Shown: in pieces, positions 6,394 through 40,207 of the stretch
Numbering within the stretch: position 1 is the first letter of the stretch
Layout: every line of letters begins with the position of its first letter
Assembly: GCA_026129405.1 (NCBI GenBank)
Contig: JAHCID010000004.1
Location: 1-64,000, forward strand
Source: a bacterium
GTDB taxonomy: Bacteria > Desulfobacterota > Binatia > DP-6
Length of the DNA stretch: 64,000 nucleotides
Direction: 5' to 3'
The notes under the pieces: generated by a model
Told to the model about the DNA's origin: nothing
The model's input: only the letters and a program-made list of their open reading frames with translations
Database searches by the model: none
Translations under genes and position numbers: made by a program

Positions 6394-6423
6394 TTGACGA
6401 ACGTTCGTTCATTTCAGTAAGCC
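6394..6423 (+). promoter_or_regulatory. Promoter and palindromic operator of the TetR-dehydratase operon
   Basis: TTGACG (6394-6399) is a good -35; at 18-bp spacing TAAGCC (6418-6423) is a weak -10. A perfect 12-bp palindrome, ACGAACGTTCGT, covers 6397-6408, so a bound repressor would block the -35. The string TTGACGAACGTTCGTTCA fits a pattern TTGACRAACNNNCGTTYR that recurs, reading on the minus strand, at 18699-18716 and 40190-40207. Confidence 0.6.
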
Positions 6424-6459
6424 ACCCGGACGTTGTCCGTCCGCGCCGAACGAACCCGC

Positions 6460-7119
6460 ATGGCCACGCCGACCCCACAGCCGACGCGCGAGGCCATCCT
6501 CGATGCGGCCGAGCGGCTCTTCTCGCAGCACGGGGTCGACGGCGTGGCGGTGCGCGACCTGGCGCGCGAGCTCGGGCTGACGCCGTCGAGCCTCTACAAC
6601 CACTTCCCCGGCAAGCAGGCGCTGTACGAGGCCGTCCTCGAGCGCGGGCTGCGGCCGATCGTCGAGGTGACGGCGGCGTCGTGGAAGGGCGAGATCCGGC
6701 GCGACTCCGTGGCCGGGACGCTCGACGTGCTGGTCGCGCACCTGGCCCAGCACCGGCACCTCGGACGGCTGCTGTACCGCGCGCTGCTGGAGGAGAAGGG
6801 CAGCGTGCAGCAGCTGCTGAACCGCTGGCTCGCGCCGCTCTACAGCGAGGGCGTGAACGTGGTCGAGAGCGCCGCCGAGGCCGCGGGCTGGGAGGGGGAC
6901 GAGGTCGCGCACCTCGCGCTCGGCCTGTTCGGGCTCGTGTTCGCCTACTTCGTGAACGGCGAGGCGCTGCGCCGCTTCGGGCCGTGGCCCGCCGATCCGT
7001 CCGATCCCGAGCTGCTCGCCGCGCAGCGCCGCTTCCTCGAGAAGGCCATCCTGCGACTGATCGGTCCGCGCCCGCGCGGCGCCGCCGATCCCAACCGACG
7101 AAGGACTCCCAATGGCTGA
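6460..7119 (+). CDS. TetR/AcrR family transcriptional regulator
   Basis: A one-component repressor. The N-terminal helix-turn-helix is clear: AILDAAERLFSQHG, VRDLARELGLTPSSLYNHFPGKQALYEAVL (motif at about residues 10-60). The C-terminal helical ligand domain is of ordinary size (about 219 residues from the ATG at 6460). There is no Shine-Dalgarno sequence before that ATG; an in-frame TTG at 6433 would sit about three bases from the predicted transcript start and cannot be excluded. The stop lies inside the next gene (ATGGCTGA overlap), so regulator and dehydratase are coupled. Autoregulation through the palindrome at 6397-6408 is likely. A similar TetR is encoded at 15392-16063. Confidence 0.9.
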   Translation: MATPTPQPTREAILDAAERLFSQHGVDGVAVRDLARELGLTPSSLYNHFPGKQALYEAVLERGLRPIVEVTAASWKGEIRRDSVAGTLDVLVAHLAQHRHLGRLLYRALLEEKGSVQQLLNRWLAPLYSEGVNVVESAAEAAGWEGDEVAHLALGLFGLVFAYFVNGEALRRFGPWPADPSDPELLAAQRRFLEKAILRLIGPRPRGAADPNRRRTPNG

Positions 7120-8239
7120 CGTGGCCGGGCACGGCGCCCGCATCACCGACGAAGGCATCGCCCGCATCCGCGAGCGCATCGGCAAGGGCTTCACCAACCG
7201 CCGGCCGTGGCGCACCGAGGTGACGCGCGACGCCGCGTATCACATGGCGCTCGGCATCGGCGATCTGTCGCCGCTCTACCACGACGAGGCCTACGCCAGG
7301 CAGACGAAGTGGGGCGGCCTTCTCGCGCCCTACATCATGATCCAGACCTTCGACACGCTGCGCTCGGTCGGCTCGAGCGGACTCCCCGAGGGTCTGCCCG
7401 GCGTGCACTCGATCTGGACCGGCTCGCTCTACGAGTGGAAGCGCCCGCTGAAGGTCGGCGACGCCGTCACCGCGAGCTCGTACCTCAAGTCGGTCGAGGA
7501 GCGGCAGAGCAAGTTCGGCGGCGGCCGCTCCATCTACCAGACCTACGAGGCGGTCTACACCGACCAGAACGGCCAGGACCTCGGGCTCCGCAACGACACC
7601 TGGATCCGCATCGAGCGCCACAAGACCGCCGAGACGAAGAAGTACGGCGAGATCGGGCTCGCGCAGTGGACCCCCGCCGACGTCGAGCGCTTCATGGCCG
7701 AGTACGCCGCCGAGACGCGCGCGACCGAGCGCTTCTGGGACGACGTCGCCGCCGGCGACGAGCTGCCCCAGCGTATCAAGGGCCCGCTCACGCCGACCGC
7801 CGAGATCGCCTTCGAGTCGCAGCTCGGCATCTACTTGGTCGGCAACCAGGTCGCCGCGAAGCTCTACGCCAAGCACCCGAAGCTCTTCATCACCAACGAG
7901 CAGGGCGTGCCGGAGCCGCCGCAGCGCGTGCACTGGGACAACGCCTTCACGACGCGTCTCCTCGGCCTGCCGGGCGCCTACGACCTCGGGCCGGAGCGCT
8001 GCGCCTGGCTGATCCAGGTCATCACCGACTGGATGGGTGACGCGGGGCACCTCGCGAAGCTCGAGTGCCGCTATCTCAAGTTCAACTACATCGGCGACGT
8101 CACGTGGATCCGCGGCCGCGTCACGGAGAAGTTCGAGCGCGACGGCAAGACGCTCGTGAAGTGCACCGTCGAGTGCGTGAACCACCGCGACGAGGTGACG
8201 GCGGCCGGCACCGCCGAGGTCGAGCTGCCCCGGCGCTGA
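7112..8239 (+). CDS. MaoC/FAS1-like double hot-dog dehydratase
   Basis: A 375-residue protein with two hot-dog halves, as in acyl-CoA dehydratases of the MaoC/FAS1-DH group. The first half has GDLSPLYHDEAYARQTKWGG followed by LLAPY, the usual N-terminal MaoC pattern with D and H near the active site. The second half has DNAFTTRLLGLPGAYDLGPE and ITDWMGDAGHLAKLECRYLKF, again with D and H positioned as in hydratase 2. It overlaps the TetR gene by eight bases and should be under its control. Reversible hydration of a 2-enoyl-CoA, perhaps with a bulky or branched chain, is the best guess; the exact substrate is unknown. Confidence 0.85.
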   Translation: MADVAGHGARITDEGIARIRERIGKGFTNRRPWRTEVTRDAAYHMALGIGDLSPLYHDEAYARQTKWGGLLAPYIMIQTFDTLRSVGSSGLPEGLPGVHSIWTGSLYEWKRPLKVGDAVTASSYLKSVEERQSKFGGGRSIYQTYEAVYTDQNGQDLGLRNDTWIRIERHKTAETKKYGEIGLAQWTPADVERFMAEYAAETRATERFWDDVAAGDELPQRIKGPLTPTAEIAFESQLGIYLVGNQVAAKLYAKHPKLFITNEQGVPEPPQRVHWDNAFTTRLLGLPGAYDLGPERCAWLIQVITDWMGDAGHLAKLECRYLKFNYIGDVTWIRGRVTEKFERDGKTLVKCTVECVNHRDEVTAAGTAEVELPRR

Positions 8240-8246
8240 GACGACG

Positions 8247-9023
8247 TCAGCCGACTTGCACGGCGGGGGAGGTGAGGACCTCCTCCGCGGCGCCCGTGAC
8301 GACCGTCCACGCGGCGTCGCGCGTGGCGCGATAGGCGGCGCGGGTCTCCGCGATCGCCTGCAACGAGGCCGCGGTCTGCTCGTCGGCGACGGCCGCGACC
8401 CGCAGGCGTCGGGCGCGTGCGGCGGTGAGCGCTTCGGCCACGAGGCGCATCGCGCCCGGTGCCAGCGTGTGCAGGGCCGTCAGGTCGACGATCATGCGGC
8501 GGTGTCCCGCCTGCGCCAGCGTCTCGACGGTACGCTTCATCGCGTCGCCGAGCACGGCGAACGTCGTGGACGGCGGCCACGGCAGCACGACGACGGGGAC
8601 GCCGTCGAACGTCTCGACCACGATCTCGGGCGCCGCCGCCCCGGTGCCCGGCGCGCCGAGCACGCGGCTGATCTCGCGATCGAAGCGGTCGCGCGTGATC
8701 GGCTTCACGAGGTACCCGCTCACGCCGAGTGCGCCGATCGCGGCCACCATGTCGCGTGACGCGAGCGCCGTCGTCATGATGACCGGCGTGGCGCGCAGCT
8801 GCGGATCGTCGTTGGTGCGCAGCACCGCGAGCACGTCGTGTCCGCTCAGGGCGGGCAGCATGATGTCGAGCAGCACGAGGTCGGGCCGCTGCTCGCGGAT
8901 CAGACCCAGGCCGCTCTGGCCGTCGCCCGCCTCGTGGATGCGGCATCCCCAGCGGCGTAGCAGCGCGACGTACAGCGCGCGGATCCCTTCGGTGTCTTCG
9001 ACGATGACGACCTGTCTGGGCAT
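8247..9023 (-). CDS. Response regulator: receiver domain fused to a STAS-like domain
   Basis: The first ~120 residues are a CheY-type receiver: VVIVEDTEG with acidic residues, phospho-acceptor Asp53 in LVLLDIMLP, Thr84/85 in IMTTALAS and Lys107 in GYLVKPIT. Residues ~130-258 look like a STAS/anti-sigma-antagonist fold (FAVLGDAMKRTVETLAQAG, MIVDLTALHTLAPGAMRLV) rather than a DNA-binding domain. The ATG at 9023 begins exactly at the receiver consensus. It is convergent with the dehydratase gene, with only seven bases between stops. Output through protein-protein contact, such as partner switching, is inferred. No cognate kinase is adjacent. Confidence 0.8.
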   Translation of the reverse strand: MPRQVVIVEDTEGIRALYVALLRRWGCRIHEAGDGQSGLGLIREQRPDLVLLDIMLPALSGHDVLAVLRTNDDPQLRATPVIMTTALASRDMVAAIGALGVSGYLVKPITRDRFDREISRVLGAPGTGAAAPEIVVETFDGVPVVVLPWPPSTTFAVLGDAMKRTVETLAQAGHRRMIVDLTALHTLAPGAMRLVAEALTAARARRLRVAAVADEQTAASLQAIAETRAAYRATRDAAWTVVTGAAEEVLTSPAVQVG

Positions 9024-9125
9024 CCCGATCCTCGTGGACCACCCCACGTCCGCCCCGCCGCCTCGGCTCGGTGCAACTGCGATGCCATGGGATACACAAC
9101 GCGGGCGCGGCCCCCGCACGTCGCC

Positions 9126-9169
9126 GGTGGCACACCGGGTGGCACACCGGGTGGCACACCGTGTGCCAC
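9126..9169. repeat. Three 12-bp tandem repeats ending in a near-perfect hairpin
   Basis: GGTGGCACACCG occurs three times in direct tandem (9126-9137, 9138-9149, 9150-9161). The last copy continues into GTGTGCCAC, so GTGGCACAC-C-GTGTGCCAC (9151-9169) is a 9-bp inverted repeat around one base. It lies about 100 bases upstream of the receiver-STAS gene and just before the glycosidase remnant. It may be a multi-copy regulator binding site; only three copies and no spacers, so not a CRISPR. Confidence 0.6.
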
Positions 9170-9245
9170 GGGTGCCTTTCTAGTCCCGCCGTCCGGCGGG
9201 TCCCGGCGTGTCACTGCGGCGCCGGGGTCGCCGGAATGCCGCGCG

Positions 9246-9560
9246 ATGCGCGTCGGGTGGCGGACGACGGTGGCGGCGGCGCTGCTCGTGGCACGGGCCG
9301 CGGCGGCTGCGCCCTACGGGGGAGCCCCGGCAGGCCGCACGGCCGATCGACGCGGTGGGCCTCCACGCCTACGCCGACGACGCGCGCGACGTGAAGGCGC
9401 AGGTGCGCCGGACAGGTGCGCCGGATACGTTCGCGCGTGCGCACGGTGTCGCCGAGTTGTGGATGACCGGTTCGGCTTCGGCACGCCCGGTCTCGGTCCG
9501 CGCACGGGTGCCGCCGGTCGGCTGGCCGCCGCCCGCGGGAGGACCGCGCAGCGCACGAGA
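9246..9560 (+). pseudogene. Remnant of a secreted clan-A glycosidase
   Basis: An ATG at 9246 opens a convincing signal peptide (MRVGWRTTVAAALLVARAAA, then AAP). About 25 codons later, in the next frame, the text reads PIDAVGLHAYADDARDVKAQ and then VAELWMT, which resembles the last barrel strands of GH5/GH39-like enzymes (usually ending in a W-x-T-E-F-G motif with the nucleophile Glu). After WMT the DNA is acc-gg-ttc-ggc-ttc-ggc-acg: one base is missing where the Glu codon should be, and FGFGTPGLGPRTG continues in the third frame. Most of the barrel is absent. I read this as a decayed gene; the family call is tentative. Confidence 0.4.
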
Positions 9561-9592
9561 TCTCCGGCGCGTCGCGCACCGCGTCGACACGG

Positions 9593-9627
9593 CACGTGTC
9601 TGCACGTGTCTGCACATGTCTTGCACG
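9593..9627. repeat. Short tandem repeat of about 10 bp
   Basis: The unit TGCACGTGTC is repeated with small changes (GCACGTGTC, TGCACGTGTC, TGCACATGTC, TTGCAC) just upstream of the DUF1329 gene. It contains CACGTG palindromes and could be a regulatory site; function is unknown. Confidence 0.45.
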
Positions 9628-9709
9628 CCGCGACGAGCGCGTGTTAGCGACCGCCCCCAGCAGCACACGCGTCGTCGCGGGAGCTCGACGCTCCCAGGGA
9701 GGGTGGTCG

Positions 9710-11107
9710 ATGCCCGTTCGTTTGCTCGCGTTGCTCGTGGTCCTCGTGCTGGTGCGTGCGGTCCCTGCCGGCGCCGGCACGGTCGATGGACGCGAGTGGC
9801 CGCCCGATCCGAGCAAGTACGCGCCCGCGGGCACCGAGGTCGCGCCGGGACTCAAGATCGGCGACACCCTCGATCAGAGCAACGCGCAGACGGCGAAGGA
9901 TCTCCTGCCGCCCGAGGTGCTCTCGCACTTCGAGAAGAACGAGTACCAGAACCCGATCGTCTCCTGGCCCGAGGGCATCATCCATTGGGATCAGTCGTTC
10001 GACGCCGCGACGAAGGAGAACGCGGCGGGACGGTTCCGCGTCGACGAGCAGGGCGCGATCATCGACGCCGCCACCGGAAAGATGCCCGAGTACGTCTACG
10101 GCATCCCGTTCCCCAACGTCTCGCCCGACGACCCGCAGGCGGCGCTGAAGGCGCTGTGGAACAACTTCCACGTCTACTGGAACACGGGCAGCTACAACTT
10201 CAACGCGCAGATCGTCTGGGTGGCACCGACCGGCGTCGACCGCATCTCGCTCCAGGACGTCTACTTCCAGTACTACGAGAACCAGAATCCGCGGTATCGC
10301 GTGCCGAACCCACAGGAGTTCTCGTGGCAGTCGCTCGCCGCCGCGAAGACCCCCGCCGACCTCCAGGGAACGGTGGCGCTCAGCTACCGCTACCGCGATC
10401 CGGCCAAGCGCGACTCGGTGTGGACGTACGTCCCGGCGCTGCGCCGCGTGCGCGCCGTGAGCCCGTCGAACCGCTCCGACGGCTTCCTCGGCTCCGACCT
10501 GAGCCAGGACGACGGCAACTTCTTCGACGCCAAGCCCGAGGACTTCAAGTGGAAGACGGTCGGCGTGAAGGAGGGGCTGCGCTTCGTCGATCCGCTGTCG
10601 ATCAAGGGTGAGGGCGGGGCGCTCCAGTGGGTGCCGTCCGGCGGCTACCGCCAGGTGTGGGACAAGGGCCTGCCGTCGGCCGGGTTCCAGAAGGAAGGGT
10701 GGACGGGCATCGCCTGGGCGCCCGTGAGCGCGGCGCTGGCCAAGCGCAAGTTCCTCGTCATCGAGGGCGTGCCGAACGACCGCTACTACCTCTACGGCAA
10801 GGTCGAGCTGTGGATCGACACGGAGTCGTGGATCGGCGCCTTCAACCGCAAGTTCTCGTGGAAGGGCGAGGCCCTCAACACGTACCAGGTCGACGGCTAC
10901 CTGAATCACCCGACCCAGAACCCCGACGGCGAGTACGACTGGTTCTGGAGCTCGCAGCACGCCTGGCAGTGCGCGGAAGCGCTGAAGCACAACCGCGCGA
11001 CGCTCGCCGGCCTGCGCCAGGACATGACGCTGCCGTTCGACCGGCGGGTGAAGCACAACACCGGCCAGCTCTTCGACGTCAACACGCTCAGCCGGTTCGG
11101 CAAATAG
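9710..11107 (+). CDS. DUF1329 family exported protein
   Basis: A protein of about 465 residues with a signal peptide (MPVRLLALLVVLVLVRAVPAGA) followed by a mature part typical of DUF1329, including the hallmark PALRRVRAVSPSNRSDGF and GSDLSQDDGNFF. Related proteins have a LolA/LolB-like beta fold and are found with outer-membrane transport genes in degraders of hydrophobic compounds. The ATG at 9710 is preceded by AGGGAGG, a good ribosome-binding site, and gives the signal peptide directly. Genes for the usual DUF1302 partner are not in this window. Role in handling lipophilic substrates at the outer membrane is inferred. Confidence 0.88.
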   Translation: MPVRLLALLVVLVLVRAVPAGAGTVDGREWPPDPSKYAPAGTEVAPGLKIGDTLDQSNAQTAKDLLPPEVLSHFEKNEYQNPIVSWPEGIIHWDQSFDAATKENAAGRFRVDEQGAIIDAATGKMPEYVYGIPFPNVSPDDPQAALKALWNNFHVYWNTGSYNFNAQIVWVAPTGVDRISLQDVYFQYYENQNPRYRVPNPQEFSWQSLAAAKTPADLQGTVALSYRYRDPAKRDSVWTYVPALRRVRAVSPSNRSDGFLGSDLSQDDGNFFDAKPEDFKWKTVGVKEGLRFVDPLSIKGEGGALQWVPSGGYRQVWDKGLPSAGFQKEGWTGIAWAPVSAALAKRKFLVIEGVPNDRYYLYGKVELWIDTESWIGAFNRKFSWKGEALNTYQVDGYLNHPTQNPDGEYDWFWSSQHAWQCAEALKHNRATLAGLRQDMTLPFDRRVKHNTGQLFDVNTLSRFGK

Positions 11108-11123
11108 GCGGTCCCGGCGCGGG

Positions 11124-11152
11124 TTGCACATCGCGCACCCTCTCGGGATAGT
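11124..11152 (+). promoter_or_regulatory. Promoter of the ACP mini-operon
   Basis: TTGCAC (11124-11129) and GATAGT (11147-11152) are separated by 17 bp. The predicted transcript start is about 11159, three bases before the ACP ATG, so the mRNA would be practically leaderless. Confidence 0.45.
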
Positions 11153-11161
11153 GGGCGGGCG

Positions 11162-11401
11162 ATGCCCGATGTCCACGACCGCCTGGTCCGCTGCTTCGCC
11201 ACCGTGCTGCCCGCGCTCGACCCGGCCCAGATCGCCACGGCGGTGCTGGGCGAGGCCCCGGGGTGGGACTCGCTCGCGACGATCAACCTGATGCTCGTGA
11301 TCGAGGAGGAGTTCGGCGTGCAGCTGTCGCTCGACGAGCTGCCCGACCTCACGTCGTTCGCGCGCATCAAGGCGCACCTCGAGAAGGAAGCCGCCGCCTG
11401 A
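11162..11401 (+). CDS. Stand-alone acyl carrier protein
   Basis: A 79-residue acidic helical protein with the phosphopantetheine attachment motif GWDSLATINLMLVIEEEFGV (Ser in D-S-L), the usual size and layout of a discrete ACP. It has no strong similarity by eye to the highly conserved fatty-acid AcpP (no DSLDTVEL), so it is probably a dedicated carrier for a specialised acyl group. It is the first gene of a tight cluster with a VOC protein and an acetyltransferase-like protein; the next gene appears to start within its stop codon. A biosynthetic acyl-modification pathway is inferred. Confidence 0.88.
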   Translation: MPDVHDRLVRCFATVLPALDPAQIATAVLGEAPGWDSLATINLMLVIEEEFGVQLSLDELPDLTSFARIKAHLEKEAAA

Positions 11402-11829
11402 CCGACGCGGTCGACCTGCGGCTCCACCACGTCGGCATGCTGGTGGCGGACGTGGCGGCTGCCGCTCCCGGGTATCTCGCGCGCTTCGGCTACGTCGAGC
11501 GCACGGGCGTCATCCACGATCCGACGCAGACCGCCCACGTGCAGTTCCTGCACCGTCCGGGTGAGCCGTTCTACCTCGAGCTGGTCGCGCCCGACGGCCC
11601 GCAGAGCAAGCTCGCCAACGCGCTCGCCAAGGGCGGCGGTCTGCACCACGTCTGCCACAGCACGCCGGACATCGACGCCGCCGTCGCCCATCTGCGTGCC
11701 CAGCAGATGCTCCTGGTCCTGAAGCCGACGCCGGCCGTGGCGTTTGACGGGCGTCGTATCGCCTGGCTCGCCGGTCGCGATCGCCTGCTCCTCGAGCTGG
11801 TCGAGCGCGGGCCGGAGGGCAGCCTCTGA
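11398..11829 (+). CDS. VOC superfamily protein, methylmalonyl-CoA epimerase-like
   Basis: About 143 residues with the two beta-alpha-beta-beta-beta modules of the vicinal-oxygen-chelate fold: LRLHHVGMLVADVAAAAPGY, LELVAPDG, then GGLHHVCHSTPDIDAAVAHL and LLELVERG. Metal ligands H (LHHVG), E (YLEL), H (LHHVC) and E (LLELV) can be placed. No ATG, GTG or TTG lies upstream of the first metal-binding His without a long extension over the ACP gene, so I place the start at CTG 11398, in a CTGA overlap with the ACP stop. Epimerase-like or isomerase chemistry on an ACP- or CoA-bound substrate is a guess. Confidence 0.75.
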   Translation: MTDAVDLRLHHVGMLVADVAAAAPGYLARFGYVERTGVIHDPTQTAHVQFLHRPGEPFYLELVAPDGPQSKLANALAKGGGLHHVCHSTPDIDAAVAHLRAQQMLLVLKPTPAVAFDGRRIAWLAGRDRLLLELVERGPEGSL

Positions 11830-12857: not shown

Positions 12858-12883
12858 AGTTTTCATAACGCGGATAGGGTTGC

Positions 12884-12913
12884 TTGACGCTCGCCGGAGC
12901 CGGCGCCTCTAAT
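12884..12913 (+). promoter_or_regulatory. Sigma-70-type promoter giving a leaderless mRNA
   Basis: TTGACG (12884-12889), an 18-bp spacer and TCTAAT (12908-12913). The expected +1 is 12920, which is the A of the ATG of the small exported protein. Confidence 0.6.
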
Positions 12914-12919
12914 GTCGGG

Positions 12920-13216: not shown

Positions 13217-13261
13217 CGGCTCGCCTTGGCCGCCGTGCGGCCGGGGTGTACGACCGACGAC

Positions 13262-14713: not shown

Positions 14714-14715
14714 GC

Positions 14716-15345: not shown

Positions 15346-15391
15346 GGCGCGGGCTGCTATCAGACGGCGTCGCAGCGGGCCAGCACGGTGC

Positions 15392-16063
15392 TCAGCTGGA
15401 GCGACGTCGCAACGTCCGTGGGGCGGGCTCCGGCGCGGGGCCGGCAAAGAGGCGGCCGAGCGCGCTCTTGACGAAGCGGCGCTGGCGCATGACGGCCGCG
15501 GGGCTGCGCGGATCCTGCTGCGTGACCGCCTCGAACAGGGCGGCGCTCGCGAAATACCCGAAGATGAGGAGGTAGAGCGCCGAGGCCAGGTGGGGCATGT
15601 CGGCCGGCGCCCACGGCGTGCGCGTCTCGGCGAGCGCGCGCAGGCCCTGCTGGTAGAGCGGGCGCAGGAGGCGCGGGATGACGCTCGGCAGGTAGCGCCG
15701 ATCTTCGAGCGCGGCGCGCTGGATCAGGCGGGGCAGGTGCGGGTGGTCGGCGAGGTAGACGACGAGCCGATCGACGGCCGTTTCGCCCCAGCTGCCCGGC
15801 GCGCCCGCCGCTGCGCTCTCCGCGACGAGCCCGAGGATGGGCTCGATGCCGCGCGCGAGCACGGCCTCGTAGAGCGCGCGCTTGTGGCGGAAGTGGTGGT
15901 AGAGGCTCGCCTGGTTGCGCAGGCCCGCGTCGGCGGCGATCTCGCGCATGGAGACGCCGGCGAAGCCGCGCTCCGCGAAGCGGCGCTCCGCGGCGTCGAG
16001 GATGACGTCGCGCGTCGACGCCGCTTCTCGACCGCGGGCGGCGGCCGGGGTGCGCCGGCTCAT
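15392..16063 (-). CDS. TetR/AcrR family transcriptional regulator
   Basis: About 223 residues. The HTH is clear: VILDAAERRFAERGFAGVSM, REIAADAGLRNQASLYHHFR and HKRALYEAVLARGIEPIL. It resembles the TetR protein at 6460-7119 through the HTH and into the ligand domain, so the two are probably paralogues. It is divergent from the Zn-alcohol dehydrogenase, with about 200 bases between the starts, so it may repress that gene; no obvious palindrome like the 6397 site was found in this gap. The ATG at 16063 precedes an Ala/Arg-rich tail of ~18 residues before the HTH. Confidence 0.88.
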   Translation of the reverse strand: MSRRTPAAARGREAASTRDVILDAAERRFAERGFAGVSMREIAADAGLRNQASLYHHFRHKRALYEAVLARGIEPILGLVAESAAAGAPGSWGETAVDRLVVYLADHPHLPRLIQRAALEDRRYLPSVIPRLLRPLYQQGLRALAETRTPWAPADMPHLASALYLLIFGYFASAALFEAVTQQDPRSPAAVMRQRRFVKSALGRLFAGPAPEPAPRTLRRRSS

Positions 16064-16264: not shown

Positions 16265-17356
16265 ATGGTCAAGGGAGCAGTACTTCATGGCTTCCTCGAG
16301 CCGCTCAAGATCGAGTCGCTCGAGCTGAAGGCCCCACGTCCGAACGAGGTCGTCGTCAAGCTTGCGGCGAGCGGCGTCTGTCACTCGGACCTGTCCGTGC
16401 AGCAGATGAAGCTGCCCTTCCCGCCGCCGGTGGTTCTCGGCCACGAGGGCGCCGGTATCGTCGAGGAGGTCGGCAAGGACGTCACCACGCTCGCGCCGGG
16501 CGATCACGTCGTCCTCTCGTGGGTCGAGAACTGCGGCCACTGCCATTACTGCGACAAGGGCACGAGCCACCTCTGCGAAGCCGGCATGCAGTCGATGATG
16601 ATGGGCCAGGAGGGCGTCTTCACGAAGGACGGCCAGGACATCTCACGCATGGCCGGCGTCGGCTCGTTCGCGGAGCGCACCGTGGTGCGCGCCACCGCCG
16701 CCATCAAGGTACCGAAGGACGTGCCGCTCGACCGCGCCTGCCTCGTCGGCTGCGGGGTCATGACCGGCGTCGGCGCGGTCTTCAACACGGCCCGCGTGAA
16801 GCCCGGCGAGACGGTCGCGGTGTTCGGCTGCGGCGGCGTCGGCCTCAACGTGATCCAGGGCGCGGCGCTCTCCGGCGCGGCGCGCATCGTCGCCGTCGAC
16901 CTGTCTCCGAAGAAGCTCGAGATGGCGATGCAGTTCGGCGCCACCGACGCCATCAAGGCGGGCGGCGACACCGATCCGGCCATGGCCATCAAGGACCTCC
17001 TCGGCGGCCTCGGCGTCGATTACGCCTTCGAGGTGATCGGCGCGCCGCCGGTGATCCTCCAGGCGTTCAACGCGCTGAAGCGCGGCGGCAAGGTGATCGT
17101 CGTCGGCGTGCCCGGCATGGGCACCGACATCACCGTGCCCGGCGCGGCCGTGCCGCTCGAGGAGAAGTCGGTGATCGGCTCGCTCTATGGGTCGGGCAAC
17201 GTGAAGCGCGACATGCCGCTCCTGATCGATCTCTACATGCGCGGCAAGCTCAAGATCGACGAGCTGGTCTCGCGCCGCATCAAGCTCGACGAGGTGAACG
17301 ACGCCTTCGCCGCGATGGAGGCGGGCGAGGTCGCCCGTAGCGTCATCGTCTACTGA
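16265..17356 (+). CDS. Zn-dependent alcohol dehydrogenase (MDR family)
   Basis: A 363-residue medium-chain dehydrogenase. Catalytic zinc ligands are in SGVCHSDLS and GHEGAG; the structural zinc lobe is NCGHCHYCDKGTSHLC with four cysteines; the Rossmann motif is VFGCGGVGLNVIQGA; and DYAFEVIGAP and the C-terminus IVY are typical of class III/benzyl-alcohol-type enzymes. It interconverts an alcohol and an aldehyde with NAD(P). Start at ATG 16265 has a strong Shine-Dalgarno. The nearby aldehyde dehydrogenase and P450 suggest stepwise oxidation of hydroxylated substrates. The gene is divergent from a TetR regulator and is closed by a strong hairpin at 17364. Confidence 0.92.
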   Translation: MVKGAVLHGFLEPLKIESLELKAPRPNEVVVKLAASGVCHSDLSVQQMKLPFPPPVVLGHEGAGIVEEVGKDVTTLAPGDHVVLSWVENCGHCHYCDKGTSHLCEAGMQSMMMGQEGVFTKDGQDISRMAGVGSFAERTVVRATAAIKVPKDVPLDRACLVGCGVMTGVGAVFNTARVKPGETVAVFGCGGVGLNVIQGAALSGAARIVAVDLSPKKLEMAMQFGATDAIKAGGDTDPAMAIKDLLGGLGVDYAFEVIGAPPVILQAFNALKRGGKVIVVGVPGMGTDITVPGAAVPLEEKSVIGSLYGSGNVKRDMPLLIDLYMRGKLKIDELVSRRIKLDEVNDAFAAMEAGEVARSVIVY

Positions 17357-17452: not shown

Positions 17453-18679
17453 TCAGGCGCGGGCGCGCGCGCGCTCCGGGGTGAACCGGATCGGCATGCG
17501 CTTGATGCCGTTGATGAAGTTGGAGCGCAGGCGCTCGACCGGGCCGGCCAGCTCGATGTCGGGCAGACGGCGCAGCAGCTCCTCGAACATCACCCGGATC
17601 TCGAGCCGGGCGAGGTTGGCGCCGAGGCAGAAGTGCGGGCCGATGCCGAAGGCGAGATGCTCGTTCGGCGTGCGGCCGACGTCGAAGCGCTGCGGATCGG
17701 CGAACCTGGCCTCGTCGCGGTTCGCGGAGGCATAGAAGAGGACGACCTTGTCGCCCTCCTTGATCGCCTGGCCGCCGAGCTCGACGTCGCGGGTGGCCGT
17801 GCGCCGGAACTGATTCACGGGCGTCACCCAGCGCAGCATCTCCTCGACCGCGGCGTCGAGCAGCGACGGATCGGCGAGCAGGCGGGCGCGCTCCTCGGGG
17901 TGCTCGATCAGCGCCAGCATGCCGCCGGAGACGAGATTGCGCGTCGTCTCGTTGCCCGCGACCAGCAGCAGCATGAAGAAGCTGTTGAACTCCATCAGCG
18001 TCAGCTTGCTGCCGTCGACTTCGGCCTGCATGAGGTCGGTGACGAGGTCTTCGCGCGGGTGCGACAGGCGCTGCTCGGCGAGCGCGTTGGCGTACATGAA
18101 GAGCTCGGCGGCGGCGATCTGCGGGACGGCCGGATCCGTCTGGTACTCCGGATCGTCGAAGCCGATCATCTTGTTGCTCCAGTCGAGCACGCGATGGCGG
18201 TCGCTCTGCGGCACGCCGATGAGCTCGACGATCACCCGCAGCGGCAGCTCGGCCGAGATCGAGGCGACGAAGTCGCACTCGCCCTGGTGCGCGATCTGGT
18301 CGATGATGTCGTTGGTGATCTCGCGGACGTGGGGCTCGAGCCGGCGGATCATCTTGTTCGAGAACCCCGTGCTGACGAGCCGCCGGTACTTCGTGTGCTG
18401 CGGCGGGTCGAGGTTCACGAGCATGCCCGCCTGCGGCTCGTACTCGCCGTCCTTCCACGAGCGGAGGATGACGCCGCCGCGCGCCGACGAGAACGTCTTC
18501 TGGTCGAGCGACACCTTGAAGACGTCGTCGTAACGCGTGACCGCCCAGAAGCCGATGTCGTTCGGCATCTCGTGCCACGTCACCGGCTCCTCGGCGCGCA
18601 GGCGCGTGAAGTCGGCGTGGGGCGGACCCTGCCGAGCGTAACGGTCCTGGTCGAAGAGATCGATTCCCGGCAGCGACAT
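17453..18679 (-). CDS. Cytochrome P450
   Basis: A bacterial class I P450 of about 408 residues. Helix I has LLLVAGNETTRN with the A/G-x-E-T-T oxygen-activation motif, ExxR is EEMLR, and the haem loop is FGIGPHFCLGANLAR with the axial Cys. Sequence style resembles the CYP124/125/142 group acting on steroid side chains or branched lipids, but specificity is inferred. ATG 18679 is one base from the predicted transcript start; another ATG at 18691 overlaps the -10 box, so the shorter form is preferred. Redox partners are not adjacent. The promoter carries the palindromic operator described at 18699. Confidence 0.92.
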   Translation of the reverse strand: MSLPGIDLFDQDRYARQGPPHADFTRLRAEEPVTWHEMPNDIGFWAVTRYDDVFKVSLDQKTFSSARGGVILRSWKDGEYEPQAGMLVNLDPPQHTKYRRLVSTGFSNKMIRRLEPHVREITNDIIDQIAHQGECDFVASISAELPLRVIVELIGVPQSDRHRVLDWSNKMIGFDDPEYQTDPAVPQIAAAELFMYANALAEQRLSHPREDLVTDLMQAEVDGSKLTLMEFNSFFMLLLVAGNETTRNLVSGGMLALIEHPEERARLLADPSLLDAAVEEMLRWVTPVNQFRRTATRDVELGGQAIKEGDKVVLFYASANRDEARFADPQRFDVGRTPNEHLAFGIGPHFCLGANLARLEIRVMFEELLRRLPDIELAGPVERLRSNFINGIKRMPIRFTPERARARA

Positions 18680-18686: not shown

Positions 18687-18716
18687 GGCATACGAAACCA
18701 AACGTTTGTTTGTCAA
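18687..18716 (-). promoter_or_regulatory. Promoter and operator of the P450 gene
   Basis: Read on the minus strand: TTGACA (18716-18711), an 18-bp spacer and TATGCC (18692-18687). The spacer begins with AACAAACGTTTG, giving TTGACAAACAAACGTTTG (18716-18699), which contains the palindrome CAAACGTTTG. This fits the same TTGACRAACNNNCGTTYR pattern as the TetR promoter at 6394. Confidence 0.6.
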
Positions 18717-32986: not shown

Positions 32987-32995
32987 CGCGTCCTC

Positions 32996-34141: not shown

Positions 34142-34196
34142 GTTCGATTTCGGGTGCTAGCGCGACGGCTTCGAAGGCGTCAACCGCAGCAGCGTC

Positions 34197-36056
34197 CTAT
34201 GGGCTCGCGGCCTTCGCCGCTTCGCGCGCTGCCGCGAGCCCCCGCTGCGCGGCGACGCTGTTCGGCTCGAGCCGCAGCGCCTCCTCGAGGATCGGGATCG
34301 CCTCGGCCGGGCGCCCCTGGCGGCGGAGCGCGACGCCGAGGTTGATGCGCGCGCCGACCTGGCTCGGGTCGGCGTCGAGGACCGCGCGCAGGTTCTTCTC
34401 GGCCTCGGCGGGCTCGCCGGCTTCGAGTTGCACTGCGGCGAGGCCGGTGCGCGCCGCGGTCTGGGTGGGGTCGCCGGCGAGCGCGCGCTCGTAGGCGAGC
34501 GCCGCCTCCGCGGTGTTCTTCGTGCGCAGGAGGACCGCACCGACCGTGAGCATCGCCGGCGCGTCGTCCTGCCCCACGCCCAGCGCACGCAGCGCCGCCG
34601 TGCGGGCGTCGTCGGCATCGCCCGCCATGAGCGACTGCATCGCCACGGTGGCCCAGCCGCGCGTGAGGTTCGTGCGCACCGTCTCCAGCACCGGCTCGGG
34701 CGTGTCGCGGCCCATGAGGAGGGCGAGCACGACCTCCGCCTGCGGCAGCGCGTCCGCCAGCCGGTCCTGCGCCTGCAGCGCGGCGCCGAGCGCCGTGCGC
34801 GCGAAGGCGTTCTGGCCGTCGACCTCGACCGCGCGCGTCCACAGCGCGACGTCGTCGTGCCAGTACTGCGTCTGGCGCCACGTCGCCGCGCCGAGCCCGA
34901 GGATGGCGACGCCCGCGAGCGCGCCGATCGCCGCGGCGCGTGCCGGTGAGGTCCCGAACGCCGCGTAGAGCCCGCCCGCGGCGAGCGCGAAGAAGGGCAG
35001 GGTGGCGAGATGCGCGTAGCGGTCGGCGACCAGCTGCGGCCCCACCTGCGCGAGCCCGAGGACGGGCGACACGATGACGACGTACGCGGCGACGGCCGCG
35101 AGCAGCGCGGGCCAGCGGCGCCGCTGGACCACGAGCAGCGCGGCGGCGGCGAGGAGCAGGACGATCGGCGCCCCGAAGCGCGGCTCCGCCGGATCGAGCG
35201 GCGGCACCAGCTCGTGGAGCGGCGAGAGGCCGGTCGGCACCAGCGTCGTCCACGGGTACCAGACGAGCCCGTATGCCGCCTGGACGAGGCGGCTCGGGAG
35301 TGGATGGTTCTCGAGGCCCGTCGGCATCGCCGCCTGCGCGAGGCGCGTCGCCGCCGCGGCGAGCAGCGCGAGCACGACGAACGGCAGCTTCTCGAGCAGG
35401 ATGGCGCCCACGCGCTCGCGGCCGAAGCGGCGCAGCGGCCAGGCGTCGACGATCAGCAGCACGGCGGGCAGGGTGATGGCCCACGCCTTGCCGAGCAGCG
35501 ACAGCGCCGTCGCTGCGACGGCCGCCGCGAGCCATGGGCCGCGGCGGCGGCCGGGAGCGTGGGCGCGCAGATACGCGAGCACCGCCGCGAGCCAGAACAG
35601 CGTCGAGACGAGGTCGCGGCGCTCGGTCACCCAGGCGACCGACTCGACGCGCAGGGGATGCAGCGCCCAGGCCGCGGCGGCGAGCGTGGCGGCGAGCGTC
35701 ACGCGGGCGGCGGCGACGGGCGGCGGCTCCGCCGCGCGGAGCAGGGCGGCGAGCACCGCCATGACGAGGACCGCGGCGAGGGCATGCCAGGCGAGGTTCG
35801 TCAGGTGGTAGCCGCGCGGCTCCATGTCCCAGGCGGCGTGGTCGACGGCGAGCGTCAGCCAGGCGAGCGGCTGCCAGTGCCCGCCGACGGTGGCCGTCGC
35901 CATCCAGCGCAGGTGCGCCGGCGAGAGGCCCCGGAAGGCGAGGTTCTCGGTGACGGTGATGTTGTCGTCGTAGTCGACGAAGCCGTTCTGGAGCGTGGGA
36001 GAGAACGCGACCGCGACGAGGACGACGAGGGCGGCCGCACAGAGCCAGCGCAGCAT
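34197..36056 (-). CDS. TMTC-like membrane protein with C-terminal TPRs
   Basis: About 619 residues. The N-terminal ~390 residues hold about ten or more hydrophobic segments with the motif NGFVDYDDNITVTEN, HWQPLAWLTLAVDH and HPLRVESVAWVTERRDLVST, diagnostic of the TMTC/DUF1736 group of GT-C-like proteins. The loop YDDN is where metal or sugar-donor-binding acidic residues lie. Residues ~420-619 carry TPR repeats (AALAYERALAGDPTQTAART, AEKNLRAVLDADPSQVGARI, AIPILEEALRLEPNSVAAQR). In animals such proteins O-mannosylate cadherins; bacterial substrates are unknown. It is 47 bases downstream of the crotonase gene, so it may share its transcript. Confidence 0.88.
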   Translation of the reverse strand: MLRWLCAAALVVLVAVAFSPTLQNGFVDYDDNITVTENLAFRGLSPAHLRWMATATVGGHWQPLAWLTLAVDHAAWDMEPRGYHLTNLAWHALAAVLVMAVLAALLRAAEPPPVAAARVTLAATLAAAAWALHPLRVESVAWVTERRDLVSTLFWLAAVLAYLRAHAPGRRRGPWLAAAVAATALSLLGKAWAITLPAVLLIVDAWPLRRFGRERVGAILLEKLPFVVLALLAAAATRLAQAAMPTGLENHPLPSRLVQAAYGLVWYPWTTLVPTGLSPLHELVPPLDPAEPRFGAPIVLLLAAAALLVVQRRRWPALLAAVAAYVVIVSPVLGLAQVGPQLVADRYAHLATLPFFALAAGGLYAAFGTSPARAAAIGALAGVAILGLGAATWRQTQYWHDDVALWTRAVEVDGQNAFARTALGAALQAQDRLADALPQAEVVLALLMGRDTPEPVLETVRTNLTRGWATVAMQSLMAGDADDARTAALRALGVGQDDAPAMLTVGAVLLRTKNTAEAALAYERALAGDPTQTAARTGLAAVQLEAGEPAEAEKNLRAVLDADPSQVGARINLGVALRRQGRPAEAIPILEEALRLEPNSVAAQRGLAAAREAAKAASP

Positions 36057-36103
36057 GCGCGGCGCGGTATACCGGCTCCGGCCCGGGCGGGCCACTTGCG
36101 GCG

Positions 36104-36916
36104 CTACTGGCCCGTGAAGATGGGCTTGCGCTTCTCCTTGAACGCCTTCGTGCCCTCGCGGCAGTCGGCCGACATCGACACCGGGATGCCGAGCTCCAGC
36201 TCCTTCTCGAGGGCTTCCTCCGGCGACAGCTCCATGCCGAGGACGACCGAGCGCTTCACCGCCTGCACCGCGAGCGGCCCGGCTTCCTGGATGATGCGCG
36301 CGTAGCGCAGCGCCTCGGGCATCACCTGGTCGGGCGGCACGACCTTGTTGACGAGGCCCATCTGCATGGCGCGCTCGGCCGAGAGCTGCTCGCCGGTGAG
36401 GAGGATCTCCATCGCGTGGCAGTAGGGGATCTGGCGCGGCAGGCGGACCGTGGAGCCGCCCATCGGGAAGAGGCTCCACTTCACCTCGGCGAGGCCGAAG
36501 CGGGCGTCGTCGCCGGCGACGCGGATGTCGGTGCAGGTGAGCATCTCGGTGCCGCCCGCGACGCAGAAGCCGCGGATGGCCGCGATGATCGGCTTCCACA
36601 CCTTGTAGTTGCGCAGCAGCCCTTTGTAGATGATCGCGGTGTCGTTGCGGACGCGCTCGTCGTACTCGGTCTCCGGCGGGCGCAGGCCCTGGAGCATGCG
36701 CACGAGGCGGTCGAGGTCGGCGCCGGCGCAGAACGCCTTGTCGCCCGCGCCGGTGAAGATGGCGACGCGGACCGCGTCGTCGTCGTTGACGTCCTGCCAC
36801 GCGTCGGCGAGGCGGCAGAGCATCTCGGTGTTGATGGCGTTGCGCACCTCGGGACGGTTCATCGTCACGAAGGCGATGCCGTCGCGCTTCTCGTAGAGGA
36901 CGGCGGGCTCGGCCAT
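36104..36916 (-). CDS. Enoyl-CoA hydratase/isomerase family protein
   Basis: A 270-residue crotonase with both catalytic glutamates: Glu144 in RFGLAEVKWSLFP and Glu170 in CHAMEILLTG. The oxyanion hole is formed by CAGADLDRL and GFCVAGGTEMLT. It should hydrate a 2-enoyl-CoA to a 3-hydroxyacyl-CoA. It is the last member of a tightly packed operon with two thiolase-like and two DUF35 proteins, two bases after the thiolase-like stop; the hydrated product is therefore a reasonable substrate for the thiolase/aldolase pair. Confidence 0.92.
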   Translation of the reverse strand: MAEPAVLYEKRDGIAFVTMNRPEVRNAINTEMLCRLADAWQDVNDDDAVRVAIFTGAGDKAFCAGADLDRLVRMLQGLRPPETEYDERVRNDTAIIYKGLLRNYKVWKPIIAAIRGFCVAGGTEMLTCTDIRVAGDDARFGLAEVKWSLFPMGGSTVRLPRQIPYCHAMEILLTGEQLSAERAMQMGLVNKVVPPDQVMPEALRYARIIQEAGPLAVQAVKRSVVLGMELSPEEALEKELELGIPVSMSADCREGTKAFKEKRKPIFTGQ

Positions 36917-36918
36917 GG

Positions 36919-38073
36919 TCAGGGCGCCTCGGTGGAGACGACCCACATCGCAAAGTACTGCGCGCCGCCGCCGTAGGCGTGGCCGAGGGCGTTCTCGACG
37001 CCGTCGACCTGGTGCGCGCCGGCGCGGCCCATCACCTGGAGCGCCGCCTCGCCGAGCCGCAGCATGCCGGACGCGCCGATCGGGTTCGTGCACAGCACGC
37101 CGCCCGACGGGTTGATCGGCAGGTGCGCGCCCATCTTCTGCTCGCCCCGGTCGATCGCCTTCCAGCCCTCGCCGACGTCGCGGAAGCCGAGGTTCTCGAG
37201 CCACATCGCCTCGAACCAGGCGAACGGGACGTAGATCTCGGCGGTCTGGATCTGGTTCCACGGATCGGTGATGCCGGCCTGATCGTACACGTGCTTGGCG
37301 CACACCTGGCCGGCGCGCGGGCTCACCTGGTCGCGGCCCGGCACCCACATCGCCTCGGCGTACGACGCCGCGCCGCGGATCCAGGCCGGCTTGCGCGGGC
37401 CCTGCTTCGCGAGGTCGCCCGCCGCCAGCACGAGCGCGACGGCGCCGTCGGACGAGGGGCAGGTCTCGAGGTAGCGGATGGGATCCCACAGGACGGGCGA
37501 GTTCATCACGTCCTCGACCGACATCGGGTCGCGCAGGTGGGCGTACTCGTTGCGCGTGGCGTTGTCGCGCGCGTTCGCGGCCGTCATCGGGCCGATGTGC
37601 GGCGGGCAGCTCGTCTTCGCGATGTAGGCGCGGCAGTACGGCGCGAAGAAGCCGCCCGCGCCGGCGACCAGCGGCGGCGTGAACGGCATGTTCGGCGACA
37701 GCGCCCACATGGCGTTGCCTTCGGACTGCTTCTCGAACGCGATCGTCAGCACGCGGTCGTAGAGCCCCGACGCGACGTGCGTCATCGCCGCGATCGCCGT
37801 CGAGGCGCCCACCGAGCCGGCCGTGTGCACGCGCAGGACGGGCTTCATGTAGCCGCCCATCGCCCCGACCAGGAACTGCTCGGGCTGGCAGACGCCCTCG
37901 AGCATGTCGGGCGCCTTGCCGATCACGATCGCGTCGATGTCGTCGTGGGTGAGCCCGGCGTCCGTGAGCGCGCGATCGACGGCCTCGCGGATGAGACCGG
38001 GGATCGAGAGGTCGGCGCGCCGGGCGCCGTGGTGCGTCTGGCCGACGCCGACGACCGCGACGGGGCGCTTCAT
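36919..38073 (-). CDS. Thiolase-fold lipid-transfer-like protein, atypical active site
   Basis: A 384-residue thiolase-superfamily protein of the SCP2-thiolase/Ltp type: VAVVGVGQTHHGARRADLSI, VHTAGSVGASTAIAAMTHVA, SSDGAVALVLA, NPSGGVLCTNPIGASGMLRL. Around HTAGSVG (residues 83-89) there is no nucleophilic cysteine where thiolases have one, and Asn330 replaces the usual His of the GHP motif. Classical thiolysis is thus unlikely. Ltp2-type retro-aldolases, which work with DUF35 partners in steroid side-chain loss, show similar departures. It overlaps the next thiolase gene by ATGA. Confidence 0.85.
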   Translation of the reverse strand: MKRPVAVVGVGQTHHGARRADLSIPGLIREAVDRALTDAGLTHDDIDAIVIGKAPDMLEGVCQPEQFLVGAMGGYMKPVLRVHTAGSVGASTAIAAMTHVASGLYDRVLTIAFEKQSEGNAMWALSPNMPFTPPLVAGAGGFFAPYCRAYIAKTSCPPHIGPMTAANARDNATRNEYAHLRDPMSVEDVMNSPVLWDPIRYLETCPSSDGAVALVLAAGDLAKQGPRKPAWIRGAASYAEAMWVPGRDQVSPRAGQVCAKHVYDQAGITDPWNQIQTAEIYVPFAWFEAMWLENLGFRDVGEGWKAIDRGEQKMGAHLPINPSGGVLCTNPIGASGMLRLGEAALQVMGRAGAHQVDGVENALGHAYGGGAQYFAMWVVSTEAP

Positions 38074-39191
38074 GACCACCTCCGCTGGGCGCCGAGCACC
38101 CAGACGATGTTCTGCTGGAGACAGTGTCCCATCGAGGCGTGGGCGAGGGCACGCCGTGCGCCGGCGACGCCGCGCTCGCCCGCGGTGCCCGTGAGCTGCC
38201 GGAAGACCTCGCCCAGCCGCACGAGGCCGGTGCTCATGATCGGATGTCCGCAGAGGGGGCCGCCCGAGGGGTTCACGACGGGCTTCTTCGCCGTGGCGTC
38301 GAGGCCGAGGGCCTCGCAGAGGATCAGCTCCTCGACCGGGGTCGTCGCCATGAGCTCGACGAGGTCGACGTCCTTCGCCGCGCCGACGTCGGCCATCGCC
38401 AGCGCCTTCTCGCCCGCGAGCTTCGCGCCCGCGCTGCGGGAGAGGTCGCGCGCGCCGAGCGACTGCATCTCGCTGCGGTGGTCGACGCCCTGGATCCATA
38501 CCGGGCGCTCGCAGAGCTTCTCGGCCTTGCCCTCGGCGGCGATGACGAGGCAGGTCGCGCTCTCGCCGATCGGCGGCAGGTAGCCGGTGCGCAGCGGCTC
38601 GACGGCCCAGTCGGTCCGCTGGAGCGCCGTCGCGGCGGCGGCCTCGCGCACCTGCGTGTCGGGGTTCTTCGCGCCCGCGGCGCGGCTCCTGGCCGCGACC
38701 GCGGCGAGGTCGGCGTCGGTGGCGCCGGTGCGCGCCATGTAGGCGCTCGCCTGGAGCGCCGACGTCGCCGTCGGCCCGAGGCCTATCGGCGCCTGGTAGT
38801 AGGGGTCGAGCGCGAGGTTCAGGATACGCTCGGGCTCGCCCTCCGACGTCTTGCCGTGGCCGCAGACGATGGCCGAGTCGGCCTCGCCGGCCTGGATCTT
38901 CAGCCAGGCATAGTAGGCGGCGAAGCTGCCGTCCATCTCGAGATGCAGATCCTGGCGCGGCGGCCAGGAGCCCATGACGTCGAGGGCGGCGACGAAGCCG
39001 AAGGGGCGGCCGTCCATGTAGTCGGTGGAGGCCGAGACCTGGTAGGCGATGTCGTCGCGCGTGGCGCCCACCTGCGCGAGCGCCTCGCGGACCACCGGAT
39101 AGAGCATCTCGGTGGACATGCGATGGCGGTCGCGCGCGACGATGGGTCCCTGCGCGAAGCCGACGAGGGCGACGTTGCGGAGTGCGCTCAT
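38070..39191 (-). CDS. Thiolase-fold protein paired with DUF35
   Basis: A 373-residue thiolase-superfamily protein: VALVGFAQGPIVARDRHRMS, DLHLEMDGSFAAYYAWLKIQ, IGESATCLVIAAEG, NPSGGPLCGHPIMSTGLVRL. His316 in CGHP is kept, but the region of the nucleophilic cysteine reads EMDGSF (residues 85-90) without Cys. It overlaps the DUF35 gene upstream and the second thiolase gene downstream by ATGA on each side, so a fixed-ratio complex is likely. A retro-Claisen or retro-aldol cleavage of a branched acyl-CoA is inferred from the pairing. Confidence 0.85.
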   Translation of the reverse strand: MSALRNVALVGFAQGPIVARDRHRMSTEMLYPVVREALAQVGATRDDIAYQVSASTDYMDGRPFGFVAALDVMGSWPPRQDLHLEMDGSFAAYYAWLKIQAGEADSAIVCGHGKTSEGEPERILNLALDPYYQAPIGLGPTATSALQASAYMARTGATDADLAAVAARSRAAGAKNPDTQVREAAAATALQRTDWAVEPLRTGYLPPIGESATCLVIAAEGKAEKLCERPVWIQGVDHRSEMQSLGARDLSRSAGAKLAGEKALAMADVGAAKDVDLVELMATTPVEELILCEALGLDATAKKPVVNPSGGPLCGHPIMSTGLVRLGEVFRQLTGTAGERGVAGARRALAHASMGHCLQQNIVWVLGAQRRWS

Positions 39192-39688
39192 AGCCGGTTG
39201 ATGTAGGACTCTCGGGGCGCGTCGGGCTCGCCCGTGGGACGGAAGTACTGGATGTCGGTGTGGTCGCCGGTGCGCTCCGCGGCGGGCTTCCACACCGCCT
39301 CGACGCGCATGCCCATGCGGACCTCGTCGGCCTTGCACTTCTGGATGAGCGCGAAGATCGAGATGGCGGCGCCGTCGAGCGCCACCGACGCCGCGACGTA
39401 CGGGATCTCGAGGTCGCGGCCGATGACCGGGATGTTGACGACGCAGAAGGTCGTCACCGTGCCGCGGTCGTCGAGCTGCACGATCTCCTCGCACGGCGCG
39501 AAGCTCTCGGGCGAGTTCAGGATCGGCGGGACGAAGATCTTGCCGGTCTTCGAGTCCTTCGATCCGAGGATCTTCCCCTCGCGCAGCCCGTTCAGGTAGA
39601 TCGCGCGAAAGTCGCCGGCCACGTAGTGGTAGGGCAGGTAGACGTTCGCGTCGACGTACTTGACGGGTTCCTTCGGCGGCTCGGTCAT
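39188..39688 (-). CDS. DUF35 OB-fold protein (thiolase partner)
   Basis: A 166-residue DUF35 protein. The C-terminal OB fold is clear: GTVTTFCVVNIPVIGRDLEI, PYVAASVALDGA, DEVRMGMRVEAVWKPAAERT. The N-terminal rubredoxin-like zinc ribbon common in this family is degenerate: GSKDSKTGKIFVPPILNSPE lacks the paired cysteines. DUF35 proteins bind thiolase-fold enzymes and channel acyl-CoA or support aldol chemistry. The ATGA overlap with the thiolase start supports direct partnership. Start is the ATG at 39688, 21 bases after the preceding DUF35 gene. Confidence 0.9.
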   Translation of the reverse strand: MTEPPKEPVKYVDANVYLPYHYVAGDFRAIYLNGLREGKILGSKDSKTGKIFVPPILNSPESFAPCEEIVQLDDRGTVTTFCVVNIPVIGRDLEIPYVAASVALDGAAISIFALIQKCKADEVRMGMRVEAVWKPAAERTGDHTDIQYFRPTGEPDAPRESYINRL

Positions 39689-39709
39689 TGGGACTCCTCG
39701 GCCGGCAGG

Positions 39710-40168
39710 TCAGTCGGCCAGACGGAAGGTGGCGATGTCGCGCAGGCTGCCGGTGCGCTCGCCCTCGGGCAGGAACTCGGCCGTGACGCGCGAGCCGACC
39801 GTCACCTTGTCGGCGTCGTCACGCACGAGGTGCGCGAGGGCGGTGTCGGCGCCGTCGAGCTTCACCAGCACGAACGCGAACGGCTTCGCTTCCGGATGCA
39901 GCCGCTCGATCGGCTGGTGCACCTTCGCGACCGCGGTGACCGTGCCGGTGTTCTCGACCAGCACCCAGTCGCCGCCCTCGGACGAATCGGTCTCCGAGTA
40001 GCCGAGCGGCGGCACGACGACGCCCTGTCCCGCGATGCGCTGCCCCCAGATGCGCCCCTGCTCCTTCAGCCCGGCGAGGAAGCGTCCGATGGTCTGTCCC
40101 GTCGAGTGCTTGTACGGGAATTCCATCGCGGTGCGGAGCTCGAGCGGGTCGGCGCGGATGTCGGCCAT
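39710..40168 (-). CDS. DUF35 OB-fold protein, first gene of the thiolase operon
   Basis: A 152-residue DUF35 protein with OB-fold strands (GTVTAVAKVHQPIERLHPEA, FAFVLVKLDGADTALAHLVR, VTVGSRVTAEFLPEGERTGS). The ribbon segment WGQRIAGQGVVVPPLGYSET contains no cysteine, so no zinc site is expected. ATG 40168 is about three bases from the predicted transcript start; an upstream in-frame TTG at 40207 is actually the -35 box. With two DUF35 and two thiolase-like genes in one operon, two heteromeric enzymes may be formed. Confidence 0.87.
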   Translation of the reverse strand: MADIRADPLELRTAMEFPYKHSTGQTIGRFLAGLKEQGRIWGQRIAGQGVVVPPLGYSETDSSEGGDWVLVENTGTVTAVAKVHQPIERLHPEAKPFAFVLVKLDGADTALAHLVRDDADKVTVGSRVTAEFLPEGERTGSLRDIATFRLAD

Positions 40169-40177
40169 GGGGCTCGG

Positions 40178-40207
40178 TGGGTAGTACTTCAAACGAGCGT
40201 TTGTCAA
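40178..40207 (-). promoter_or_regulatory. Promoter and operator of the DUF35-thiolase operon
   Basis: Minus-strand TTGACA (40207-40202), an 18-bp spacer and a weak TACCCA (40183-40178). TTGACAAACGCTCGTTTG (40207-40190) includes the dyad CAAACG-CT-CGTTTG and fits the same pattern as the sites at 6394 and 18699. Confidence 0.55.

Follow-up and report, generated by a model that had tools for sequence, protein, structure and literature searches.

A promoter element shared by three catabolic loci of a Binatia genome, and its assignment to two candidate TetR repressors

The element and the genes behind it

The window analysed here is a 64,000-nucleotide stretch (contig JAHCID010000004.1, positions 1 to 64,000) of the genome of a soil-type Binatia bacterium (G000; 5.63 Mb in 15 contigs), and its subject is an 18-nucleotide element that occurs in it three times and is read below as a TetR-type operator fused to a promoter. 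As listed in Table 1, the first copy precedes the gene of a TetR-type repressor, TetR1, and a dehydratase-domain gene, the second a CYP125-like cytochrome P450 gene, and the third an operon of DUF35 and thiolase-like proteins. A second repressor gene, TetR2, lies near the P450 gene; the alcohol dehydrogenase gene between them is similarly arranged in the related genome G003 (76% identity).

Table 1. Coordinates of operators, predicted -10 hexamers and genes in the window
Feature	Position	Strand	Remarks
Operator 1, TTGACGAACGTTCGTTCA	6394..6411	+	TetR1 type, G at position 6 and C at 17; -35-like TTGACG
Predicted -10, TAAGCC (operator 1)	6418..6423	+	TA at site positions 25-26
TetR1 repressor gene	6460..7119	+	Pfam TetR_N 63.8 bits, cut-off 24; TetR1 clade
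MaoC/FAS1-type dehydratase-domain protein	7112..8239	+	downstream of TetR1; Pfam FAS1_DH_region; kept beside TetR1 in relatives
TetR2 repressor gene	15392..16063	-	Pfam TetR_N 54.1 bits, cut-off 24; TetR2 clade
Zinc alcohol dehydrogenase	16265..17356	+	Pfam match
CYP125-like cytochrome P450	17453..18679	-	predicted leaderless start 18679; best PDB match CYP125MRCA
Predicted -10, TATGCC (operator 2)	18687..18692	-	site positions 25-30; TA conserved
Operator 2, TTGACAAACAAACGTTTG	18699..18716	-	TetR2 type
Thiolase-like protein, Ltp3-type	36919..38073	-	NCBIfam PRK08313 584.9 bits, cut-off 514
Thiolase-like protein, Ltp4-type	38070..39194	-	NCBIfam PRK07937 339.7 bits, below cut-off of 419
DUF35/ChsH2-type OB-fold protein b	39188..39688	-	Pfam OB_ChsH2_C
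DUF35/ChsH2-type OB-fold protein a (DUF35a)	39710..40168	-	first gene behind operator 3; Pfam OB_ChsH2_C
Predicted -10, TACCCA (operator 3)	40178..40183	-	site positions 25-30
Operator 3, TTGACAAACGCTCGTTTG	40190..40207	-	TetR2 type; exact CAAACGNNCGTTTG dyad

The three 18-mers, which a first-pass annotation of this DNA had proposed as copies of one element, were recovered verbatim, and each fits the degenerate pattern TTGACRAACNNNCGTTYR. This pattern has exactly three matches in the whole genome, just these sites, and none in a reversed-pattern control; base composition predicts ~0.007 matches, a figure that is only suggestive, since these very sites were used to build the pattern. The independent test is conservation in other genera. 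The 14-mer dyad CRAACGNNCGTTYG is exact at 40190 and carries one mismatch each at 6398 and 18699; at up to two mismatches it is not enriched within the window (15 observed vs 20.6 expected), and it was dropped as a sole signal. The genome-wide statistics come from pattern searches, and genes were called from their codon composition, not with a gene finder. A scan of this kind found further copies of the dyad beyond the three sites, and all five exact copies of CAAACGNNCGTTTG in the genome are intergenic, four of them immediately upstream of a catabolic gene.

The exact element is present in 10 of 38 near genomes, with a reversed-pattern control match in one. In other genera of the family it stands before the orthologs of TetR1 and its dehydratase (G003, G005, G006), of the P450 (G001, G003, G005) and of DUF35a (G003, G004), and this recurrence before the same three genes marks it as functional DNA. 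Counterparts of operator 1 stand before TetR1 in G003, G005, G006 and others, those of operator 3 before DUF35a in G003, G004 and G090, and the operator 2 18-mer recurs identically upstream of TetR2 orthologs in G090, G091-G094 and Chloroflexota. Across the 148 genomes of the class, TTGACRAACGNNCGTTYR was found in 14, each of which belongs to the 43 that encode a TetR2-like protein.

When 32 sites from upstream of TetR1 or TetR2 orthologs are aligned, the -35 reads TTGAC and the dyad occupies the spacer; in 30 of the 32, TA falls at site positions 24-26. The TTGAC is not mirrored across the dyad, and in some other dyad promoters (e.g., upstream of an acyl-CoA dehydrogenase (ACAD; CoA, coenzyme A) in G000 and G003, judged by eye) the TTGAC/TA spacing is kept with the dyad placed elsewhere; for both reasons TTGAC is best read as part of the promoter and the dyad as the predicted operator. 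The earlier proposal of a TetR-type operator overlapping the -35 and common to lipid/steroid-type catabolic genes is upheld as a prediction from sequence. Since the ATG at 18691 falls inside the predicted -10, the P450 likely starts at the in-frame ATG at 18679, on a leaderless message. Many operators (L065-L071, e.g., L069:19686-19703) hold overlapping dyads shifted by 4 bp (CGAACAAACGTTCGTTTG), an arrangement that might make room for two registers or for two dimers.

Two TetR paralogs and their operators

The two repressors of the window are ~40% identical, and in a tree of 58 homologs the TetR1 (100/99) and TetR2 (99/91) clades are separate, with Chloroflexota proteins inside TetR2. Their recognition helices differ, reading L[RK]NQASLYHHF in TetR2 and LTPSSLYNHF in TetR1, and so do the sites upstream of their genes: TTGAC[G/T/C]AAC... 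before TetR1 orthologs, and TTGACAAAC...GTTTG before TetR2 orthologs, where it often heads a TetR2-P450 operon. Directly upstream of TetR2 orthologs in Binatia and Chloroflexota the form is TTGACAAACNNNCGTTTG, often in TetR2-CYP125 operons; TetR2 adjoins CYP125 behind a single operator in G002, G004, G005, G090, G091 and several Chloroflexota. Two operator positions separate the clades: for TetR2 and TetR1 sites, respectively, A stands at position 6 in 15/16 and 0/16, and T at position 17 in 16/16 and 1/16 (Fisher 5.7e-8 for each). G090, a genome of 100% completeness, has no TetR1 ortholog, yet carries TetR2-type operators before TetR2-CYP125 and before DUF35a. The mean number of CAAACGNNCGTTTG copies per genome is 2.6 in 20 genomes with TetR2 vs 0.25 in the 128 others, and 3.9 in TetR2-only vs 0.33 in TetR1-only genomes (p 8e-4). 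Taken together, the operator code, the case of G090 and the dyad counts point to TetR1 as the candidate repressor of site 1 and to TetR2 as the favoured regulator of sites 2 and 3.

We consider it fairly probable that TetR operators fused to core promoters are divided between the paralogs, with TetR1 serving its own operon and TetR2 a sterol-type side-chain set. In such an element the -35 would be TTGAC, the spacer would be taken up by a dyad (C)RAAC-N4-GTTY(G), and the -10 would start with TA ~18 bp past the -35. A repressor dimer bound there would lie over both the -35 and the spacer and shut out RNA polymerase. TetR1 would repress its operon (TetR1 and the MaoC-type dehydratase) at TTGACGAAC...GTTCA. 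At CAAACNNNCGTTTG, TetR2 would repress CYP125 and the DUF35-Ltp operon, together with distant genes. The set under TetR2 would provide C26 hydroxylation, CoA activation, a first dehydrogenation and aldol/thiolytic cleavage. The repressor would come off in response to a side-chain intermediate, probably an acyl-CoA.

Several observations weigh against this division. No operator stands in the promoter of the window's TetR2 gene itself or in that of the ortholog in G003; the DUF35 site of G003 is mixed (CAAAC...GTTCG); the TetR2-containing genomes G013, G032 and G091-G093 have no exact G-type dyad, G091-G093 using CAAACAAACGTTTG instead; and the 148 genomes behind the cross-genome counts are not phylogenetically independent. 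The mixed site would also fit if TetR1 and TetR2 both bound all three sites as partly redundant repressors of one regulon, and the operators do have a common core, AAC-N4-GTT, differing mainly at the two outer positions; a TetR1-clade gene adjoins a CYP125-like gene as well (at L137, below). Such cross-talk is nevertheless unlikely, as the repressors coexist in many genomes and yet the operator versions in their own promoters stay distinct, and TetR1-only genomes are nearly devoid of TetR2-type dyads. The first-pass annotation had named TetR1 (6460-7119) as the natural candidate for all three sites; in its favour are its place right behind site 1 and a single degenerate consensus that covers the three. 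Sole control by TetR1 is now highly improbable, because positions 6 and 17 segregate by clade, placing sites 2 and 3 with TetR2, the dyad counts likewise track TetR2, and the element is still found in front of CYP125 and of the DUF35 operon in genomes that have TetR2 but not TetR1, such as G090. Any single TetR for the three sites was rejected on the operator code and the absence of TetR1 from G090. Quite improbable, too, is a set of several overlapping regulons in which other TetRs with similar half-sites are the main readers of sites 2 and 3 and of the dyads across the genome: a separate third clade does sit behind GAACGNNCGTTC-type dyads, and one G000 dyad lies at a TetR/CecR-type gene, but the CAAACGNNCGTTTG count follows TetR2 presence over the 148 genomes, and TetR2 orthologs are preceded by a site of the kind seen at sites 2 and 3.

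Three further observations concern the repressor families. At L137:9569-11598 the TetR1-clade gene lies directly before its CYP125-like neighbour, with a hybrid operator, TTGACCAACAAACGTTTG. The third related TetR clade (families f4 and f6; L098-L100, L224, L226) has its GAACGNNCGTTC dyads upstream without a TTGAC -35. The Chloroflexota TetR2 proteins (L120-L129, L131), several of them beside CYP125-like genes, are nested in the Binatia clade, which suggests a transfer of the regulated module between phyla.

Wider targets and the probable substrate

Among solved P450s, the window P450 is closest to CYP125, scoring 542 bits against the ancestral CYP125MRCA, 335 against CYP125 of Mycobacterium tuberculosis and 327 against CYP124. 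The two thiolase-like proteins were classified through PRK08313 and PRK07937, presumably the Ltp3 and Ltp4 types, respectively. Elsewhere in G000 the dyad precedes a second CYP125-like P450 (C1:225245, 58% identity to the first), an acyl-CoA synthetase (C1:1100159) with a PRK07798 match above cut-off, and a ChsE4-like ACAD (C4:322037); a further dyad lies at the TetR/CecR-type gene. The best PDB match of the ACAD is 4x28, which we take to be ChsE4-ChsE5 (461 bits), followed by Tcur3483 (398), with all others at 147 or less, and its dyad is kept in G003, G025, G090 and G098, which represent four families. In another, related family (f11), the element is flanked by a CaiB-type CoA-transferase gene on one side and a KstD-like gene on the other in G025 (C85:97635, L076), G088 (C138:11635, L110) and G087 (C109:2341, L109); the best solved relative of the G025 protein is a 3-oxosteroid 1-dehydrogenase (602 bits). 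The steroid type proposed earlier for a three-locus regulon gains support from the CYP125-like P450, the Ltp3/Ltp4-type thiolases, the ChsE4-like ACAD and, in the related family, KstD. The number of loci exceeds three.

By gene resemblance, these targets look like sterol-type side-chain catabolism. A result on the other side comes from the KstD and HsaC models, whose best matches in G000 were 74.6 bits (cut-off 788) and, for HsaC-type proteins, 35.4 bits (cut-off 366). Four of the nine genomes searched (G012, G025, G088, G098) encode a full-length KstD-like protein that scores ~600 bits, again below the 788 cut-off. With neither enzyme above cut-off, ring degradation and complete sterol mineralisation are not supported in G000. 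It may be that this genome serves to shorten sterol side chains, that it encodes a ring route as yet unknown, or that its substrate is another branched lipid. A substrate among other methyl-branched or isoprenoid lipids would leave the favoured regulation as it is, and would agree with the KstD and HsaC result and with the score of CYP124, an enzyme of methyl-branched lipids, so close to that of the M. tuberculosis CYP125. We regard it as somewhat unlikely, as the ancestral CYP125 scores much higher, the ACAD is specifically ChsE4-like, and KstD follows this element in three genomes of family f11.

Sterol side-chain oxidation of the CYP125 type is described in reviews as present in Actinobacteria and absent from Proteobacteria (PMC4810484, PMC6678751), and a genome survey of the Binatota does not mention steroids (PMC8262859). 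A steroid route is mentioned in PMC5790920 as having been proposed for the Chloroflexi clade SAR202, a proposal that fits the Chloroflexota homologs found here. A conserved operator before CYP125-like, Ltp3/4-type and ChsE4-like genes, and in some genomes before KstD, suggests that uncultured soil phyla carry out sterol-type catabolism under regulation. The operator provides a sequence tag for locating the remaining pathway genes, and the paired repressors, with an operator code of two bases, would make a clean test case for the divergence of specificity between TetR paralogs.

A UbiA-type prenyltransferase gene, the start of which is uncertain, and a radical SAM gene (40177-42256) are divergent from the DUF35 operon, and operator 3 could also affect them. 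At 9596-11401 a gene for a DUF1329/LolA-like protein is followed by one for a stand-alone acyl carrier protein; DUF1329 relatives are found beside TetR2 or DUF35 genes in other genomes too. Family 10 and 26-like glycosyl hydrolase genes and another P450 gene (54297-55511) stand close to the catabolic cluster, at 49065-57238.

Comparison with KstR and other TetR regulators

FadR of Bacillus, PsrA and BkaR, TetR proteins responsive to acyl-CoA, resemble the present repressors in fold and in the role predicted for the latter, control of acyl-CoA degradation; the PsrA NCBIfam model scores 46.9 bits, confined to the helix-turn-helix and far below family cut-offs, and the targets differ. KstR2 and Mce3R of Mycobacterium are likewise TetR-type, and theirs is the control of cholesterol catabolism. 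KstR2 structures are among the fold matches of a TetR2 structure model (mean predicted local distance difference test score 85.8; Z 18.0), but many other TetRs tie on Z, sequence identity to KstR2 is ~17%, and there is no sign of the KstR2 targets (rings C/D). With so many tied folds the comparison does not identify a ligand, and the absence of KstR from the matches listed is no evidence either way.

The closest parallel is the KstR regulon. For KstR (Rv3574), the motif TnnAACnnGTTnnA is reported, and its sites include those at Rv3520c/Rv3521, Rv3545c, Rv3503c/Rv3504 and Rv3515c/Rv3516 (PMC1995591). As proposed for Binatia, a TetR-type repressor and a palindromic operator overlapping the promoter are combined with counterpart target genes. 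We take these sites to be those of DUF35-ltp4-ltp3, cyp125, the chsE4 region and fadD19/echA19; by resemblance, lookalikes of the whole set of cyp125, ltp3/ltp4/DUF35, chsE4 and the side-chain CoA ligase carry the dyad here. The differences lie in the phyla, in the operator, TnnAACnnGTTnnA in KstR vs AAC-N4-GTT (CAAACNNNCGTTTG) here, in its placement, over the -10 in KstR and over the -35 and spacer here, and in the repressor itself: against the KstR model NF033703 (cut-off 280 bits) TetR2 gave no match and TetR1 23.3 bits, and a reading of TetR2 as KstR is not supported. On balance, we hold the chances to be even that Binatia and the Chloroflexota sharing TetR2 independently wired a KstR-like regulon for sterol side chains with a non-KstR TetR and another operator, the repressor being one of a paralog pair whose operator code diverged at two bases along with the recognition helix, so as to form a two-channel system.

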